Positions 34,909 to 41,527 of a DNA stretch of 50,913 nt are shown here, one piece after another. Each line of letters opens with the position of its first letter. The first letter of the stretch is position 1. The position numbers were made by a program, and so were the translations under genes. The notes under the pieces were generated by a model. It saw nothing but the letters and a program-made list of their open reading frames with translations, had not been told where the DNA came from and did not search any database. Where the stretch lies: contig JAMOBD010000037.1 of assembly GCA_039908345.1 (NCBI GenBank), positions 1 through 50,913 on the forward strand, written 5' to 3'. Origin of the DNA: Magnetospirillum sp. WYHS-4. GTDB lineage: Bacteria; Pseudomonadota; Alphaproteobacteria; Rhodospirillales; GLO-3.

Positions 34909-36174
34909 TCAGCGGGCAAGAATGGCCACGGCCTCGACGTGGGCGGCGTAGGGGAACTGGTCGACGGGGACCACCTTGAGGAGCCGAAAGCCGCCGTCGA
35001 CCAGCAGGCGCAGATCGCGGGCCAGGGTGGCGGGATTGCAGGACACCGCGGCGATGCGCCGGATCGAAGGGCTCCGCGCCAGGGCGGCGGCCTGGAAGCG
35101 GGCGCCGGCACGGGGTGGATCGAAGATCGCGGCATCGAAGGCTTTGAGTTCGGCATCAGCCAGGGGCCGACGGTCCAGGTCGCGGACCTCGGCCGCCAGG
35201 CGGCCGCCCAGGCCGGCCCGGCCTGCCGCCTGCCGCAGGGCGTCGACGGCCGCCGCGTTGCCTTCTTCCGCCTGGACGGAAAGCCCGTCGCCCGCCAGAG
35301 CCAGGCCGAAGGTTCCGAGGCCGGCGTAAAGATCGAGAACCCGCTTGGGTCGGCCCAGGGCCTCGCGCACCAAGCCGACCAGGACCGCTTCGCCTTCGGC
35401 GCTGGGCTGGAGGAAGCCGCCCGGCGGCAGTTCCACGGCGATGCCGGACAGGGTGATGTGCAGGCGCCGGCGCTGGGCCAGCAACTCGGCGGGCTCGGCT
35501 TCCGACTTCTGCCAGGAAACCCGCCCCACCCCTTCCAGAGCAGCCAGCCGCAGGCCTTCCTCCGGGCCAGGGCGGCGGGCCAGGCCGAGCACCAAGTCCA
35601 GTCCTTCCGCCGCCAGGGTGAGGCGCAAGGTGCCCCGCTCTCCTTGGCGCAAGACGCCGGCCAGGGCCTCGCGCAAGGCCGGCAGGCGGTCGTCGAGGGC
35701 GGGCAGCAGCAAAGGGCAGCGGCGCACATCCACCACCCGACGCCCGAGCCGCTCGCTGAATCCCAGCACGACCCCGGCCTGGAGCCGCATGACGCTGAAG
35801 GTCGCGCGTCGCCGCCGGCCGGGCGGCACCATGACCGGCGCCGCGACGGTGGCTTCGATACCGCGATGGGCTAAGGCCTCGGTGACCTGTTGCACCTTCC
35901 AGGCCGCATGGCTGGCCGCATCGGCATGCTGCAAGGCGCAGCCGCCGCAGCTTCCGAAAAGGGGACAGAAGGGTGCGACCCGGGTGGGTGCGGGTTCGAG
36001 CAACTCTTCCATTTCGGCCAGCAGGCCGTCGCCGCGCTTGTCGCGGATGCGTACCCGCACCCGTTCGCCGGGCAGGGCCAAGGGAATATAGAGGCGGGTG
36101 CCGTCCGCCGCCCGTGCCAAGCCGTCGCCCTGGCTGCCCAGGGCCTCGACGGTCGCCTCGAAGGTGCGGCTCAC
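34909..36174 (-). CDS. 23S rRNA (uracil-5-)-methyltransferase of the RumA/RlmD type
   Basis: A 421-residue enzyme with an N-terminal TRAM domain (about 1-55), a [4Fe-4S] cysteine set in FCPLFGSCGGCALQH plus Cys in DVRRCPLL, and a SAM domain with VLDLYAGLGTFGLALA. The nucleophile is in AVSCNPATLARDL, and FDAAIFDPPRAGA is the NPPR-like motif. It methylates U at C5 in 23S rRNA. Start GTG 36174 overlaps the lipoprotein stop as GTGA. It ends the Mla operon, perhaps only by chance of position. Confidence 0.88.
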   Translation of the reverse strand: MSRTFEATVEALGSQGDGLARAADGTRLYIPLALPGERVRVRIRDKRGDGLLAEMEELLEPAPTRVAPFCPLFGSCGGCALQHADAASHAAWKVQQVTEALAHRGIEATVAAPVMVPPGRRRRATFSVMRLQAGVVLGFSERLGRRVVDVRRCPLLLPALDDRLPALREALAGVLRQGERGTLRLTLAAEGLDLVLGLARRPGPEEGLRLAALEGVGRVSWQKSEAEPAELLAQRRRLHITLSGIAVELPPGGFLQPSAEGEAVLVGLVREALGRPKRVLDLYAGLGTFGLALAGDGLSVQAEEGNAAAVDALRQAAGRAGLGGRLAAEVRDLDRRPLADAELKAFDAAIFDPPRAGARFQAAALARSPSIRRIAAVSCNPATLARDLRLLVDGGFRLLKVVPVDQFPYAAHVEAVAILAR

Positions 36175-36782
36175 CTTTTCGCGGCGGCCAGGTCGCCCAG
36201 GAAGCGGCCATAGACGTCGGTCAGGGCCTTGCCGAAGGCGGTCGCCACCTCGCCCACCGCGTCGCCGGAAGGCACCACCTGGGCCTTGTAGGTCTTGAGC
36301 AGCAGCAACTCGTCGCCGCGGATCTTGCGGGCCGACATCTCCAGTTCCACCAGGGCCCCAGGGGTTCCTCCGACGACCCGCTCCAGGCGCAGGATGCGGC
36401 CGCGCACCATGTAGTCGGGCGATACCCGCACCTCGGGGGTGACCACCTGGGCGGCGGCCTTGCCGGCACGCAGGAAGTTGACCAGTTCGTCCCGCAGCAT
36501 GGTGGCCGGGGGCTCGGTCCAAAGGTGGTAGTGGTACTCGTGCAATTCCTGGGGCTTGGCGCTATCGCTATAGACGATCGCCCGGCCGGCGGTCAGGCCC
36601 TCGACGACGAAGCGGTCCACTTCCAGGATGCCCGGCAGGATCGCGGCCGCCCCGGACGCGGCGGGCGCCGCCACCTGAAGACGATAAAAGGTGTTCTGCG
36701 GCACCGGGCCGCCGCCGCCGCCGCAGGCAGCAACGGCCAGCGACAATCCCAGCGCGAGGATGATCGGCTTCAGCTTGCTCAT
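36171..36782 (-). CDS. ABC-type transport auxiliary lipoprotein (PqiC/DUF330-like)
   Basis: A 203-residue lipoprotein with a lipobox at VAAC (Cys20) and a Gly-rich spacer. The domain (FYRLQVAAP, VDRFVVEGLTAGRAIVYSD, YHLWTEPPATMLRDELV) matches the auxiliary lipoprotein that accompanies MCE transporters and may connect them to the outer membrane. It overlaps MlaD by four bases and the methyltransferase by four. Confidence 0.87.
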   Translation of the reverse strand: MSKLKPIILALGLSLAVAACGGGGGPVPQNTFYRLQVAAPAASGAAAILPGILEVDRFVVEGLTAGRAIVYSDSAKPQELHEYHYHLWTEPPATMLRDELVNFLRAGKAAAQVVTPEVRVSPDYMVRGRILRLERVVGGTPGALVELEMSARKIRGDELLLLKTYKAQVVPSGDAVGEVATAFGKALTDVYGRFLGDLAAAKR

Positions 36783-37786
36783 CGTCTGGTCCCCTCCGTC
36801 GCTTCGTCCTTCGGACTCGAACCGCCCAGCAGGCGGCCCGGGTTCTGGCGGATTTCCCGGCTGAATTCATACATGTTCCGCGCCGTGCCTTCCAGATTCT
36901 GGTTGATCGAGTCGATGTGGCGGGACAACGATCCGAGCACATGGCGCATGTCGTTGACCGAGGCCTCGATCTTCTCGCGGTTCTTGACCACCACGCCGTC
37001 GGTATCGGTCACCAGCTTGTTGGAGTTGTCGAGCAGGGCGTTGGCCTTGCCGGAAACGCCGTGCAAATCCTTGGACGCGGCATCCAGGTTGCCGATCATG
37101 TCTTCCATCGCCTTGCGGTTGGCCGGCGAGAGGAAGGCGCTCAATTCCTTGCTGGCCTTGCTCATCTCGCCGCTGAAGATCTCGATGTCCTCCGCCACCT
37201 TGGGCACCCGCTTGTTGATATCCTGGATCAGGGAGATGATCTCGCCGACCAAGCGCTCGCCGTCTTTCTCCAGGAGGTTGCCGAAGACCGCAACCGTGCG
37301 GTCCAAGGTGATCAGAAGGGGGCGCAGATGGGTATCCGCCAGGCTGCCCAGGTCGGAGGCCACGTTGGACATCACGGAGAAGAGGTTGGCGGCATCCTGG
37401 CCCTTGATCTGGGCGCCGGGAGTGAGCGGCCTTTCGCTCTTGCCCGCGTCGATGGCGATGGTGATGGCCGACAGCAGGCCCGGCGCGCGGATGCTGGCCA
37501 CGCTGTCTTCCGGGATCATCCAGCCCTGGTTGACCGTCAGGTCGACCCGGAAGCGCATGCCGCCCTTTTCCGCCATCGGCGTGATCTTTTCCACTTGGCC
37601 GATGGGATAGCCTTCATAGAGCACCTGGGTGCCGAACTTGACGCCGGTGACGTTCTTGTAGATGGCGTAGTAGGCATCCGCCGTTCCCGTCCGTCCCGAC
37701 AGCACCGCGGTAACGAAAATCAGCGCCGCCACCATGACCAGTACGAAGCTGCCCACCAGCAGGTAATTGATCTTGTTGCTTTTCAC
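36779..37786 (-). CDS. mlaD: MlaD family MCE-domain protein
   Basis: The 335-residue periplasmic substrate-binding component of a phospholipid transporter has an N-terminal membrane anchor (about 8-30), one MCE domain (about 38-125: YYAIYKNVTGVKFGTQVLYEGYPIGQV), and a long helical region (about 140-310) that could form a channel or coiled coil, as in longer MCE proteins. It is longer than E. coli MlaD (183 aa). It overlaps MlaF by four bases. Confidence 0.92.
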   Translation of the reverse strand: MKSNKINYLLVGSFVLVMVAALIFVTAVLSGRTGTADAYYAIYKNVTGVKFGTQVLYEGYPIGQVEKITPMAEKGGMRFRVDLTVNQGWMIPEDSVASIRAPGLLSAITIAIDAGKSERPLTPGAQIKGQDAANLFSVMSNVASDLGSLADTHLRPLLITLDRTVAVFGNLLEKDGERLVGEIISLIQDINKRVPKVAEDIEIFSGEMSKASKELSAFLSPANRKAMEDMIGNLDAASKDLHGVSGKANALLDNSNKLVTDTDGVVVKNREKIEASVNDMRHVLGSLSRHIDSINQNLEGTARNMYEFSREIRQNPGRLLGGSSPKDEATEGTRR

Positions 37787-38619
37787 AGCCTGGCCCTCCC
37801 CATGGTTTCTTCCCCCATCAGCCGGCGCAGGTATTCCTCGGGATCGACGTTGTCTTCCTCGGTGCGTCGGTTCAGCAGATTCTGGATGCGCTCGCTGGGA
37901 TGGTTGCGCACTTCCTCGACGGTGCCGACGAACAGGATGTTGCCCTTGTCCAGGACGGTGATGCGGTCGGCGATCTTGAAAGCGCTTTCCAGTTCGTGGG
38001 TCACCACCACGATGGCCATGCCCATGGCGTCGCGCAGACGCAGGATCAGGTCGTCCAGGGACGCCGATACCACCGGGTCCAGGCCTGCCGACGGCTCGTC
38101 CATGAACAGGATCTGCGGGTCCATGACAATGGCGCGGGCCACGGCGGCGCGTTTTATCATGCCGCCCGACAGTTCGGACGGCATCAGGTTCTCGAAGCCG
38201 GCCAGGTTGACCACCTCCAGCTTCATGCGGGCCATGATCTCCATGGTCATGGGATCAAGGTCGGTATGCTCGACCAAAGGCAGCATGATGTTCTGGCCGA
38301 CGGTCATCGAACTGAACAGGGCGCCGCCCTGGAAGGCGACGCCGAAACGCCGGCGGAGCGCGAACATCTCCTTCATGGTCAGCTTGGTGATGTCCTGGCC
38401 CAGGATGCGAATGGCCCCCGTTGTCGGGCGTTCCAGGCCCAGCAGATGGCGGAGCAGGGTGCTCTTGCCCGAACCCGAGCCGCCCATGATGACCATGATC
38501 TCGCCGTCGCGGACATCCATGGTGATGCCCTTGAGGATCAGGCGGGGACCATAGTGGGTGACCAGGTCGTCGACCTCGATCACCTTGGTACGGCCGGAAG
38601 CGGTCGCCGGGGCATTCAT
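37783..38619 (-). CDS. mlaF: MlaF-type ABC transporter ATPase
   Basis: A 278-residue ATPase driving the lipid transporter. Walker A GGSGSGKSTLL (about 47-57), signature LSGGMIKRAAVARAI, Walker B ILFMDEPSAGLD, and the H-loop VVVTHEL. The C-terminal extension after residue 240 (SERIQNLLNRRTEEDNVDPE) is where MlaF contacts its partner subunits in E. coli. One-base overlap with MlaE. Confidence 0.95.
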   Translation of the reverse strand: MNAPATASGRTKVIEVDDLVTHYGPRLILKGITMDVRDGEIMVIMGGSGSGKSTLLRHLLGLERPTTGAIRILGQDITKLTMKEMFALRRRFGVAFQGGALFSSMTVGQNIMLPLVEHTDLDPMTMEIMARMKLEVVNLAGFENLMPSELSGGMIKRAAVARAIVMDPQILFMDEPSAGLDPVVSASLDDLILRLRDAMGMAIVVVTHELESAFKIADRITVLDKGNILFVGTVEEVRNHPSERIQNLLNRRTEEDNVDPEEYLRRLMGEETMGRARL

Positions 38620-39440
38620 CAGCGGGTCACCACGAAAGCGAAGATCATGTCGGTGACCACGATGGCCGAGATGGACTGCACCACGGCGCGGGTTGTCACC
38701 TTGCCGACTCCTTCCGCGCCGCCCGAGACCGAGGCGCCGTTGACCACCGCGATGACGGCGATCAGGACGGCGAAGATCAGGCTCTTGCCCAGGCCGTGCG
38801 CCAAGTGGTCGTTGTTGAGTATTTCGCGCACCTGGTCGATGTAGGCGGCCATGCTGATGCCCAGATCGAAGCCCACGTAGAGCCCGGCGGCATAGAGTCC
38901 CACCAGGTCGCTGAAGAAGGTCAGCGCCGGCACCATGACGATCATGGCGAACAGGGCGGGGGCGACCAGGAAGCGGACCGGGTTGATGCCCATGACGTGC
39001 AGGGCGTCCACTTCCTGGTTGATTTTCATGGTGCCCAGGCGGGCGGCCAGCGCCGAGCCCGACCGGCCGGCCACCAGGATGCCGGTGATAAGGGGGGCGA
39101 ACTCGCGGGTGATGGACAACGCGATGCCGATGGTGACGCGCGATTCGGCGCCGAACAGCCGGAGCGTGTGGATGCCCTGGATGGCCAGCATGACGCCGAT
39201 GGTGGCGGCCAGCAGGGCGATGATGGGCACCGCCCGAATGCCGATTTCCATCATCTGGGCGACGATGGACACCATGCGCACCGGCTGGCGGTACTTGGGG
39301 CCCAGCAGCATCCAGAACAGGCTTTCGCCCAGCAGGACCCCGCAGTTGCCGATTTCCTCGACGGCCACGACGACGTTGCGCCCCACCTTCTCGGTGAAGC
39401 GGACGGCGGCGCTGGGCGGCTTGTCATCGGGGGCGGACAT
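38619..39440 (-). CDS. mlaE: MlaE-type permease
   Basis: The 273-residue inner-membrane permease of the MCE lipid transporter. The conserved core is visible: AATIGVMLAIQGIHTLRLFGAES, REFAPLITGILVAGRSGSALAARLGTMKINQEVDAL and VAPALFAMIVMVP. It has five to six membrane helices. It starts one base after the STAS gene stop. Confidence 0.95.
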   Translation of the reverse strand: MSAPDDKPPSAAVRFTEKVGRNVVVAVEEIGNCGVLLGESLFWMLLGPKYRQPVRMVSIVAQMMEIGIRAVPIIALLAATIGVMLAIQGIHTLRLFGAESRVTIGIALSITREFAPLITGILVAGRSGSALAARLGTMKINQEVDALHVMGINPVRFLVAPALFAMIVMVPALTFFSDLVGLYAAGLYVGFDLGISMAAYIDQVREILNNDHLAHGLGKSLIFAVLIAVIAVVNGASVSGGAEGVGKVTTRAVVQSISAIVVTDMIFAFVVTR

Positions 39441-39441
39441 G

Positions 39442-39774
39442 TCAGGGAACCAGGTTCAGGCCCTCGGCCACGGTGGGGTGGATGACGAATATCTTGTCCA
39501 GCCGGGCCAGCCTGAGCACCCGGAGAGCGGCCTCGCTGACCGCCACCAGGGCCAGGGCCTGACCGTTCTTCTTGGCGGTCTGCAGGGCCTCCACCAGGGA
39601 CGCCACGCCCGAACTGTCGATGTAGGAAACCCCCGACAGATCGACCAGCAGGGCCTTCTTGCGTCCCGCCGCTTCCAAGAGGACCTTGCGCGCCTCGCGG
39701 GAGCTTTCCAGGTCCACGTCCCCCTGGAAGGCCACCACGACCGCCTTGCCCTCATCCCTTACGTCGTGTTTCAT
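39442..39774 (-). CDS. STAS domain protein with a phosphorylatable serine (anti-anti-sigma / MlaB-like)
   Basis: A 110-residue single STAS domain. LVDLSGVSYIDSSGVASLVEAL holds Ser54-Ser55; Ser55 aligns with the Ser of SpoIIAA and RsbV that is phosphorylated by an anti-sigma kinase. In the Mla system, MlaB is also a STAS protein that binds MlaF. Here it sits between a phosphatase with a kinase-like domain and mlaE, so it may link partner switching to lipid transport. The fold and Ser are seen; the link is inferred. Confidence 0.88.
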   Translation of the reverse strand: MKHDVRDEGKAVVVAFQGDVDLESSREARKVLLEAAGRKKALLVDLSGVSYIDSSGVASLVEALQTAKKNGQALALVAVSEAALRVLRLARLDKIFVIHPTVAEGLNLVP

Positions 39775-39787
39775 TTTCCGCCTCGTG

Positions 39788-41527
39788 TCATCCGATGCGT
39801 TTGACCATTCTTAGCAGGTTGCCGCCATCCGGGGGAGTGGGCAGGAATTCGACCGAGTCCATCACCTCGCGGATGAAATGGGTGCCCAGGCCGCCCGGCC
39901 GGATGTCGTCCAGATCGCGCGGCTTGATCTTGCTGACGTCCACCGGTTCGGCGTAGTCGCGCAGCAGGATCGTCATCTCGTCGGCCGTGCGATGGATTTC
40001 CAGGGCCACGAGGCCCTCGCCCGAGTTCTTGTAAGCGTGGCGGATCACGTTCTGGCAGGCTTCGTCGACCGCCAGCACCACGTCGAGCACGGTCTCGTCC
40101 CCCATGCCGCAGATGCGCGCCGCCTCGGAAACCGCGCTACGCACCAGCTTGAGACGGTCGGGCCGGGCCGGGAAGGAAAGTTTCACCAAGCGTTCGCCGG
40201 AAATGGCCGTGGGGGCGAAAACATCCGCCCGGTCCCCGCCGCGATCCTCGACGGCCAAGATGGTGACGTCGTCGTGCAAGGTGGCGCCGGGTCGGGCCAG
40301 AAGGGCGGAGATCGCCGCCAGGCGTTCGGCGAGCGGCCGTTCGCGTCCCCGGCCGGCCATCCGCTGGAAGCCCTCGGAGCCCAGGGCAGAGCCGTCCTCG
40401 ACCGTACCCTCGGTGACGCCGTCGGTGAACAGGTAGAGCGTTCCTCCGGTCAGGTCGATCTCGACTTCGGGAAAGGCGTGCTCGGGGACCAGCAGGGGCG
40501 AGATGCCTAGCGGTGGCGAGTCGGCCTCGAAACGCTCTGCCGTTCCGTCGGCGCGTAGCAGAAGGGCCGGTTCGTGGCCGGCGTTGGCCAGACGGGCCCG
40601 TCCGCTGGCGGGATTGAAGATGCCGGCCGCCATGGTGACGAACATGCCCCGCGTGGTGGTCTCGCAGACCTCGCGGTTGATCAGCGACAGCAGGCGGCCC
40701 GGCTCGTGCACGGTGCGGCCCAGGCAGCGGAACACGCTGGCCGTCTTGGCCATCAGCAGGGCCGCGTTCATGCCCTTGCCGGAAACGTCGCCGATGGCGA
40801 AACAGATGCGGCCGTCTTCCAGCGTGAAGAAGTCGTAGAAGTCGCCCGACACCATGCGGGCCGGCACGTTGACCCCGGCCACCGGGAAGTCGTCGCTCCC
40901 CGCCTCGGGCAGCAGGCCGCGCTGGATCTCGGCGGCCAATTCCAGTTCGTGGCGGGTGCGCTCCTGCTCGACCAGGGCCTCGGCCATGCGGGCGTTGAGG
41001 ATCGCCATGCCGGCCGAAGAGGACAGCACCTGCAACACCTGAAGATCGGCCCTGGAGAACAGCCCGTCGCCGCCCTTCTTGTTGACCAGTTCGATGGCGC
41101 CGATCCGCTTGTCCTTGACCGCCATCGGGGCGCAGAGGATGGAGCGGGTGGTGAAGCCGGTCTTGTCGTCCACCGTCTTGTGGAAATTGGGGTCCCTTTC
41201 CACGTCGCGGACGATTTCCGGGATGTTGTTCTGCACCGAGCGGCCGACGATGCCCTGGTCGGCCTGCAGGGTGAGGCCGGTGATGTCGATGGGGCCGACG
41301 CAGGCATGGCAATTCAGGTTGGTCGCCCCCTCGTCCAGCAGGAACAGGGCTCCCCCTTCCGCGCCCACATGGTCGGAGATGCGGGCAAGCGCCCGGCGCA
41401 AGGTGTCTTCCAAGTCGCGGGAAGCGGCGAAATCCTGGCTCATGTCGGCCATCAGGGCAAGCGGACCCGCCAAGCCGTTGTCGGCCTGCAATGTTTCCCG
41501 ATCCGCTCCGTTCCCCCTTTTAGCCAT
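39788..41527 (-). CDS. GAF-SpoIIE phosphatase-HATPase regulator
   Basis: The 579-residue protein has three parts: a GAF domain (about 30-185), a PP2C/SpoIIE phosphatase (about 195-420: AAEIQRGLLP, SGDFYDFF, GDVSGKGMNAALLMA, LFTDGVTEG, DDVTILAVE), and a C-terminal GHKL ATPase of the RsbW type (about 440-579: VDEACQNVIRHAYKN, DIRPGGLGTHFIREVMD). Phosphatase and kinase-like domains for a STAS target thus occur in one protein, with the STAS gene 13 bases downstream. The GAF domain may sense a ligand. ATG 41527. Confidence 0.9.
   Translation of the reverse strand: MAKRGNGADRETLQADNGLAGPLALMADMSQDFAASRDLEDTLRRALARISDHVGAEGGALFLLDEGATNLNCHACVGPIDITGLTLQADQGIVGRSVQNNIPEIVRDVERDPNFHKTVDDKTGFTTRSILCAPMAVKDKRIGAIELVNKKGGDGLFSRADLQVLQVLSSSAGMAILNARMAEALVEQERTRHELELAAEIQRGLLPEAGSDDFPVAGVNVPARMVSGDFYDFFTLEDGRICFAIGDVSGKGMNAALLMAKTASVFRCLGRTVHEPGRLLSLINREVCETTTRGMFVTMAAGIFNPASGRARLANAGHEPALLLRADGTAERFEADSPPLGISPLLVPEHAFPEVEIDLTGGTLYLFTDGVTEGTVEDGSALGSEGFQRMAGRGRERPLAERLAAISALLARPGATLHDDVTILAVEDRGGDRADVFAPTAISGERLVKLSFPARPDRLKLVRSAVSEAARICGMGDETVLDVVLAVDEACQNVIRHAYKNSGEGLVALEIHRTADEMTILLRDYAEPVDVSKIKPRDLDDIRPGGLGTHFIREVMDSVEFLPTPPDGGNLLRMVKRIG

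Follow-up and report, generated by a model that had tools for sequence, protein, structure and literature searches.

A partner-switch gene pair linked to an MlaE-type lipid transporter operon in Magnetospirillum sp. WYHS-4 and its relatives

Could a lipid transporter be switched by a kinase and a phosphatase encoded in its own operon? The question is raised by a six-gene block on a contig of Magnetospirillum sp. WYHS-4 (GenBank assembly GCA_039908345.1, contig JAMOBD010000037.1). The window, meaning the whole stretch of DNA that was analysed, spans positions 1 to 50,913 of this contig, and the block lies on its minus strand at 36171-41527. Six open reading frames encode, in order, a protein with GAF, PP2C phosphatase and GHKL kinase domains, a STAS protein, MlaE, MlaF, a long MlaD, and a PqiC-like lipoprotein. 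As far as the available text of the cited papers goes (the same holds for every paper cited by PMC number below), the Escherichia coli STAS protein MlaB is required for assembly of its transporter (PMC5016091). Both PMC5016091 (Thong 2016, which tests Thr52Ala) and PMC7367683 (Kolich 2020, which tests Thr52Glu) propose that MlaB is regulated by phosphorylation; the latter states that there is no experimental evidence for MlaB phosphorylation and calls MlaB regulation, and its phosphorylation in cells, an open question. For that question, the operon brings together candidates for the kinase, the phosphatase, the sensor, and the substrate within a single block. We consider it likely that the block encodes an MlaE/MCE-type lipid ATP-binding cassette (ABC) transporter with its own partner switch, in which the STAS protein fills the role of MlaB and its phosphorylation switches transport.

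Linkage of the switch genes to the transporter genes

A sequence-only reading of the window had described a tight minus-strand operon in which a GAF-SpoIIE phosphatase with a C-terminal RsbW-like GHKL domain is followed by a STAS gene and then by genes for MlaE, MlaF, MlaD, and an auxiliary lipoprotein. This description was borne out. The first two genes are 13 bases apart and STAS and MlaE are separated by 1 base, whereas MlaE and MlaF overlap by 1 base and both MlaF and MlaD and MlaD and the lipoprotein gene by 4. Pfam matches above cut-off in the block were GAF, SpoIIE, HATPase_c_2, STAS, MlaE, ABC_tran, MlaD, and ABC_trans_aux.

To evaluate the linkage, the first protein, MlaE, and STAS were each searched for in 150 genomes from the same order as the window (the source genome among them), and the results were combined. 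MlaE of the window type, with at least 56% identity (56 to 79%, plus the window itself), was found in 97 of these genomes. A STAS gene lay directly upstream on the same strand in all 97, with at most 123 bases between the aligned ends. A kinase domain adjoined STAS in 95 of the 97 by script, and in 96 once G038 had been read, where the kinase is a separate frame that the search had missed; in G035, the remaining genome, a contig end lies on either side of the joint. GAF-PP2C was encoded on the same contig and strand in 93/97. It was on another contig in G120 and G035, was not found beside the kinase in G002, and in G144 only the kinase matched. Of the order genomes, 78 have the kinase fused to GAF-PP2C and 17 have it as a separate gene. 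A hand count that took phosphatase matches of at least 300 bits, among genomes that shared descent makes far from independent, gave 95 genomes with both phosphatase and MlaE, 3 with the phosphatase only, 2 with MlaE only, and 50 with neither. GAF-PP2C occurred without window-type MlaE in G076, where the contig ends, and in G019 and G018. The module was absent from G014, the other sampled genome of the window's own family.

A second set came from a scan with one genome per species, from which the 80 best of the 336 relatives of the first protein were taken; some species are shared with the order sample. Where enough contig was available, STAS was the next gene in 78/78 loci, MlaE followed STAS in 73/74, and all six genes were in order in 57/57. 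The sole exception to MlaE after STAS was L096 (G260:C183), which has a frame for a different ABC ATPase of 232 residues there. The sequence-only reading had staked its proposal on this gene order being kept in relatives, and it is kept. In a count by eye, 55 of the 80 locus titles name Rhodospirillales or Rhodospirillaceae; the others are broader or odd, including three Candidatus Marinimicrobia. Named species that carry the module are Magnetovibrio blakemorei and Terasakiella pusilla, both Rhodospirillales, and T. brassicae. Because these are cultured environmental bacteria, the question of MlaB regulation is directly testable in them.

Among 240 genomes of the class Alphaproteobacteria, MlaE with 48 to 66% identity was found in 8 genomes outside the order, and the next match was at about 40%. 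STAS and the kinase were beside MlaE in 8/8, once, in G360, as a convergent neighbouring block of STAS, GAF-PP2C, and kinase genes. A ninth, diverged set in G296 (L132) has the order kinase-STAS-E-F-D-lipoprotein at 25 to 46% identity and no adjacent phosphatase. The match in G156 stops at a contig end. These results demonstrate that the linkage of kinase/phosphatase, STAS, and MlaE is not a matter of chance. At one locus, G207:C57 (L131:1276-2009), tandem STAS genes (60% and 42% identity) lie between the kinase gene and MlaE.

Switch proteins and the predicted phosphorylation site

The catalytic residues of both enzymes are intact. The kinase residues E489, N493, D524, G546, and G548 are invariant in 104/104 distinct rows of the alignment, and the PP2C aspartates are kept in 102/104 (D229, D247) or 103/104 (D369, D420), the remainder being gaps. 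The GHKL domain scored below the cut-offs of the RsbW and SpoIIAB equivalog models of NCBIfam, and its only match among solved structures at E ≤ 0.01 was RsbW of the RsbW:RsbV complex 6m36 (5e-11). The STAS protein matches RsbV of the same complex.

An AlphaFold model of the full-length 579-residue protein (mean predicted local distance difference test [pLDDT] score 80.8, predicted template modelling score [pTM] 0.51, low-confidence stretch at 537-548) served for domain borders only. It orders the domains as GAF, a 47-residue helix (159-205), PP2C, and GHKL. The nearest solved matches of the GAF domain were the GAF domains of PDE5, PDE2, and adenylate cyclase. Residues N149, K150, F157, and D161, which we take to be part of the NKFDE motif of cyclic-nucleotide-type GAF domains, are mostly kept, and the E of the motif is replaced by L. 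This resemblance may offer a lead on the signal, and no more than a lead.

The sequence-only reading had pointed to a phosphorylatable serine in the DSSG motif of the STAS protein and had chosen Ser55. The serine is kept, but alignment with E. coli MlaB places Ser54 (in D53-S54-S55-G56), rather than Ser55, at the position of Thr52. Ser54 is serine in 103/103 distinct STAS sequences, and both Ser54 and Ser55 are serine in all 123 loci rows. The protein is a single-domain STAS with the DS motif and scored 81 bits with TIGR00377, above the cut-off of that model. Its model (pLDDT 94.8) has a strand at 97-99 and a helix at 102-108. In a set of 21 STAS domains fused to MlaE, the corresponding residue was Thr in 16, Ser in 4, and Val in 1 by eye; a script gave DT 15, DS 5, and DV 1 because it placed L187 and L193 wrongly. 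With Thr or Ser at 20 of the 21 sites, fusion has mostly left this residue in place.

Stand-alone paralogs of the STAS protein (G000:C57:2601-2906, L166-L172) have 44 to 51% identity to it, keep DSSG in 8/8, and cluster close to the module STAS; the sequence fetched around them gave no mla match.

Transporter type and the MlaF tail

The window permease belongs to the MlaE family (PF02405, 228.9 bits against a cut-off of 22.5) and falls narrowly below TIGR00056 (209.9 against 212.2). The E. coli-type NCBIfam models for MlaE, MlaF, and MlaD all scored below their cut-offs (153.6 against 315, 191.9 against 441, and 67.1 against 135), and none of the six proteins had a match to the MlaC family in the Pfam search. 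The earlier designation of the operon as Mla-type needs correction: the gene set, with its long MlaD and PqiC-like lipoprotein, is nearer to that of the Mla-Pqi chimera Mpc than to E. coli Mla.

A tree of 85 MlaE sequences contained three groups: module MlaE (39; clade support 100/99), MlaE with an N-terminally fused STAS domain (21), and a second, unfused MlaE of the order (24), into which E. coli MlaE falls on a long branch. A 378-residue frame at C49 of the source genome was considered as a STAS-MlaE fusion and rejected, since the open frame extended into the gene upstream and the start of the protein itself is about 108 residues farther on.

The groups differ in the C-terminal tail of their MlaF proteins. 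Module tails resemble DPxEYLRRLTG, and window Y263 and L267 align with E. coli Y261 and L265. Omission of 11 loci without a complete MlaF from the 92 given left 81 module sequences. The pattern [YHW]xxxL, which was fixed after a first look at the tails, occurred in 79/81 module, 0/24 unfused, and 1/21 STAS-fused sequences (shuffled-tail expectations per sequence of 0.13, 0.01, and 0.02, respectively), and tail length splits the groups identically (medians of 29, 14, and 13 residues). The MlaF of Pseudomonas aeruginosa, from a solved complex with a separate MlaB, has DYRADLL. Tyr261, Leu265, and Leu266 in the C-terminal extension of an E. coli MlaF are the residues through which it packs at the MlaB interface of the partner MlaF (PMC7367683). 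E. coli MlaE belongs to the third group, yet E. coli has MlaB and has the tail, which indicates that the tail goes with STAS and not with the permease group.

A search made afterwards around the 24 unfused MlaE-MlaF pairs found no STAS-like match (E ≤ 0.01) within the MlaE-MlaF stretch or upstream of MlaE (2 kb in 20 cases, 2.8 to 3.7 kb in the other 4); a gene farther downstream, like E. coli mlaB, or a very diverged MlaB would escape this search. The accompaniment of a separate STAS protein by the MlaF tail suggests a tie between STAS and the pump that goes beyond gene order and a motif in one genome.

How the switch might act

In the simplest reading, an RsbV-type STAS protein took the place of MlaB and retained its kinase and phosphatase. 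The unphosphorylated STAS protein would bind MlaF, at its helical subdomain and at the C-terminal tail of the partner MlaF, and so permit MlaFE to be active. Ser54, in the middle of the predicted contact surface with MlaF, would be phosphorylated by the GHKL domain, and this contact would then break. Phosphorylated Ser54 is expected not to bind MlaF because MlaF binding is substantially reduced in MlaB Thr52Glu (PMC7367683). The PP2C domain, on the same polypeptide as the kinase, would remove the phosphate from Ser54, and the GAF domain, which the long helix connects to PP2C, would tip the balance between kinase and phosphatase upon a signal. The proposal that reversible STAS phosphorylation switches phospholipid transport in response to a GAF-sensed signal was already part of the sequence-only reading. 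The linkage and the MlaF tail now support it in part, and the binding of STAS to MlaF, the phosphorylation itself, its polarity, the sensing of a signal by the GAF domain, and phospholipid as the substrate are its predicted parts. We lean, with somewhat less assurance than for the MlaB-like role, toward a dedicated kinase/phosphatase switch that gates an intermembrane lipid ABC transporter via the MlaB-like STAS protein, possibly with a cyclic-nucleotide-like signal at the GAF domain.

The mutant phenotypes of E. coli MlaB bear on the polarity. Thr52Ala keeps binding, and ATPase activity is greatly reduced (PMC5016091, PMC7367683). Together with the need for MlaB in assembly, this would fit a STAS protein that is a constitutive structural subunit whose phosphorylation controls only assembly or turnover, or one whose phosphorylated form is the active form. 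We give these possibilities little credence: the reduced binding of Thr52Glu argues against them, and the union of kinase and phosphatase domains in one sensor protein points to reversible control.

It is also conceivable that information flows the other way, with transporter occupancy titrating STAS and so setting the kinase, which would relay the status of lipid transport to another target and make the transporter the sensor. In RsbV/RsbW-type switches, which PMC10120452 contrasts with SypA/SypE, the kinase is the downstream effector, and additional clients might exist in the stand-alone STAS paralogs. However, kinase and phosphatase of the block form one protein, as they do in SypE, whose STAS partner is downstream (PMC10120452), and no additional target gene shows wide conservation in the neighbourhood. 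Very little credence can be given to this direction of flow.

Evidence against a dedicated switch

Control of the transporter by the switch is our preferred reading, and a number of observations weigh against it. The STAS protein is nearer to anti-sigma antagonists than to MlaB in sequence and in fold: it scored 28.8 bits with the MlaB model NF033618 against a cut-off of 90, and fold comparison gave Z scores of 17 to 18 with SpoIIAA/RsbV versus 12.8 with P. aeruginosa MlaB. It also lies outside the group of MlaE-fused STAS domains in a 107-column tree, which is poorly resolved. The fusion is therefore taken as an analogy and not as evidence of homology. The tail evidence has its own weaknesses in addition to the late choice of the pattern. 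Two module MlaF proteins do not have it (L132, with WIRLF, and L133, with a short tail), alignments of Acinetobacter baumannii MlaF stop short of the tail, which is thus unseen there, and tail deletion in E. coli left MlaF-MlaB binding intact though function was lost (PMC7367683). The retained binding of Thr52Ala with its greatly reduced ATPase activity belongs here as well, and MlaEF pairs without a nearby STAS gene in the same order imply that STAS is not obligatory.

The pair of PP2C-kinase and STAS genes is, moreover, kept without window-type MlaE in G019, G018, and G260. At the G019 locus (L120, G019:C10:81500-91500), the mla genes have a decayed look, with mlaE cut after about 80 residues, the lipoprotein frame broken, and neither mlaF nor mlaD found between these two remnants; the switch genes are intact. 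In G018 the pair sits between GCS2 and GST genes. The three genomes indicate that the pair can outlive the pump or serve other uses. G303 encodes a GAF-PP2C protein (about 40% identity), but the 8.7 kb fetched gave no match to STAS, kinase, or mla genes, and no MlaE was found in this genome. In G002, the kinase and STAS genes have no adjacent phosphatase gene.

Descent of the module STAS from the fused STAS of Mpc-like permeases was considered and rejected, because the tree, with its few columns and long branches, gives it no support.

These observations bear on the possibility that the pair is an ordinary partner switch with another output (transcription, cyclic-di-GMP, or another STAS target) and is merely encoded in one operon with an MlaFE that works without any STAS. 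The RsbV-like sequence and fold of STAS, the MlaEF pairs without a nearby STAS, the persistence of the switch pair in the three genomes, and the stand-alone DSSG paralogs in the 8 genomes examined would all be expected. Nevertheless, we regard such an output as unlikely in view of the linkage in 97/97 genomes and 57/57 loci, its retention in the convergent (L128) and diverged (L132) sets, and the MlaF tail that accompanies the separate STAS. Moreover, a survey of 57 loci with 4 kb upstream and 46 with 3 kb downstream found no sigma factor among examples of the ten largest neighbour clusters. The commonest other neighbour families at the best 80 loci were COX3 in 28 and PhaC in 22, with the rest in fewer, which leaves the six genes as the widely conserved unit.

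Features of the block and other neighbourhoods

The features of the block are collected in Table 1. A same-strand frame ends 56 bases upstream of the block and a frame that looks like an RNA methyltransferase, named by eye, abuts it downstream; the transcript may therefore exceed the six genes.

Table 1. Positions of the genes, domains, and sites of the six-gene block in the window
Feature	Position	Strand	Basis
GAF, long helix, PP2C (SpoIIE), GHKL (RsbW-like) kinase protein, 579 residues	39788..41527	minus	Pfam, conserved catalytic residues, AlphaFold model
GAF domain, residues 36-178	40994..41422	minus	Pfam
PP2C/SpoIIE phosphatase domain, Pfam 238-427; D229, D247, D369, D420 conserved	40247..40816	minus	Pfam and alignment
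GHKL serine kinase domain, 452-576; N-box E489/N493, D524, GGLG 545-548	39800..40174	minus	Pfam, alignment
STAS protein, 110 residues	39442..39774	minus	Pfam, structure model
Ser54 codon (AGT), predicted phosphorylation site, MlaB Thr52 equivalent	39613..39615	minus	alignment
MlaE-type permease, 273 residues, no fused STAS	38619..39440	minus	Pfam MlaE 228.9 bits; module clade in tree
MlaF-type ATPase, 278 residues	37783..38619	minus	family and sequence comparison
MlaF C-terminal extension, residues 250-278, Y263-x3-L267	37786..37872	minus	aligned with E. coli MlaF Y261/L265
MlaD/MCE protein, 335 residues, GTG start, long C-terminal part	36779..37786	minus	Pfam MlaD 45.9 bits
ABC_trans_aux (PqiC-like) lipoprotein, 203 residues	36171..36782	minus	Pfam PF03886 49 bits

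Other switch genes were observed near transporter genes. About 3 kb ahead of a gene for an ABC ATPase-MlaE fusion protein there is a second PP2C-kinase-STAS set (G000:C3:86734-94072, L158:7735-15073). We rejected it as an independent case, as the whole fusion occurred in only 1 other of the 150 genomes (G142, 41% identity). That relative lies near a 1605-residue frame (L164, G142:C120), and no switch gene was matched upstream of it. At G000:C41:8779-13637 (L160:1780-6638), genes for a chemoreceptor-like protein, STAS, a kinase, and a receiver-PP2C protein are followed by a same-strand MlaA lipoprotein gene. The kinase-STAS-EFD-lipoprotein set of G002:C18 (L122:6280-7749) has a small protein with a cyclic-nucleotide-binding domain encoded divergently next to the kinase.

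Comparison with known systems

In the RsbU/RsbW/RsbV and SpoIIE/SpoIIAB/SpoIIAA systems, a PP2C phosphatase and a GHKL kinase act on a STAS protein with a phosphorylated serine, and the output is a sigma factor. The block shares the phosphatase, the kinase, and the STAS serine with these systems.

On the transporter side, E. coli MlaFEDB has MlaE, MlaF, and MlaD, a separate STAS protein with a putative phospho-acceptor at the Thr52 position, and the MlaF Tyr-x3-Leu tail, as does the block. It differs in having Thr rather than Ser, and the available text of Thong 2016 and Kolich 2020 names no kinase or phosphatase. E. coli also has MlaC, and the block instead has a long MlaD and a PqiC-like lipoprotein. 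MlaB is without the fifth strand and last helix (PMC7367683), both of which the modelled STAS of the block keeps. Brucella Mpc, an Mla-Pqi chimera, resembles the block in its E-F-D-lipoprotein order, an MlaD of about 330 residues, and a PqiC-like lipoprotein, but it is a four-gene operon with STAS fused to the N terminus of MpcE, whereas STAS is separate in the block (PMC12436622). The STAS-fused MlaE proteins of other alphaproteobacteria form a different clade, and 20 of their 21 MlaF partners are without the tail. If our reading is correct, there would be lipid transporters of three states: with no STAS, with STAS fused to the permease, and with a separate STAS that has a kinase and a phosphatase.

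Among switches, a precedent is SypE/SypA of Vibrio fischeri, in which one protein with kinase and PP2C domains sets the state of a serine in a downstream single-domain STAS protein; SypE has a receiver domain instead of GAF and another domain order, and the genes belong to a biofilm polysaccharide locus rather than a transporter operon (PMC10120452). No MlaB kinase and no partner switch acting on an MCE transporter was found in the accessible part of the open-access PMC literature, and a word search in the available text of a review of STAS-only proteins found neither MlaB nor ABC. HsbA-HsbD, BgrV-BgrR, and SiaABC-SiaD exemplify partner switches whose output is an enzyme and not a sigma factor; that enzyme is a diguanylate cyclase, in contrast to the ABC transporter proposed here (PMC8457831). 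If the proposal holds, an ABC transporter would join sigma factors and diguanylate cyclases among the outputs of partner switching.

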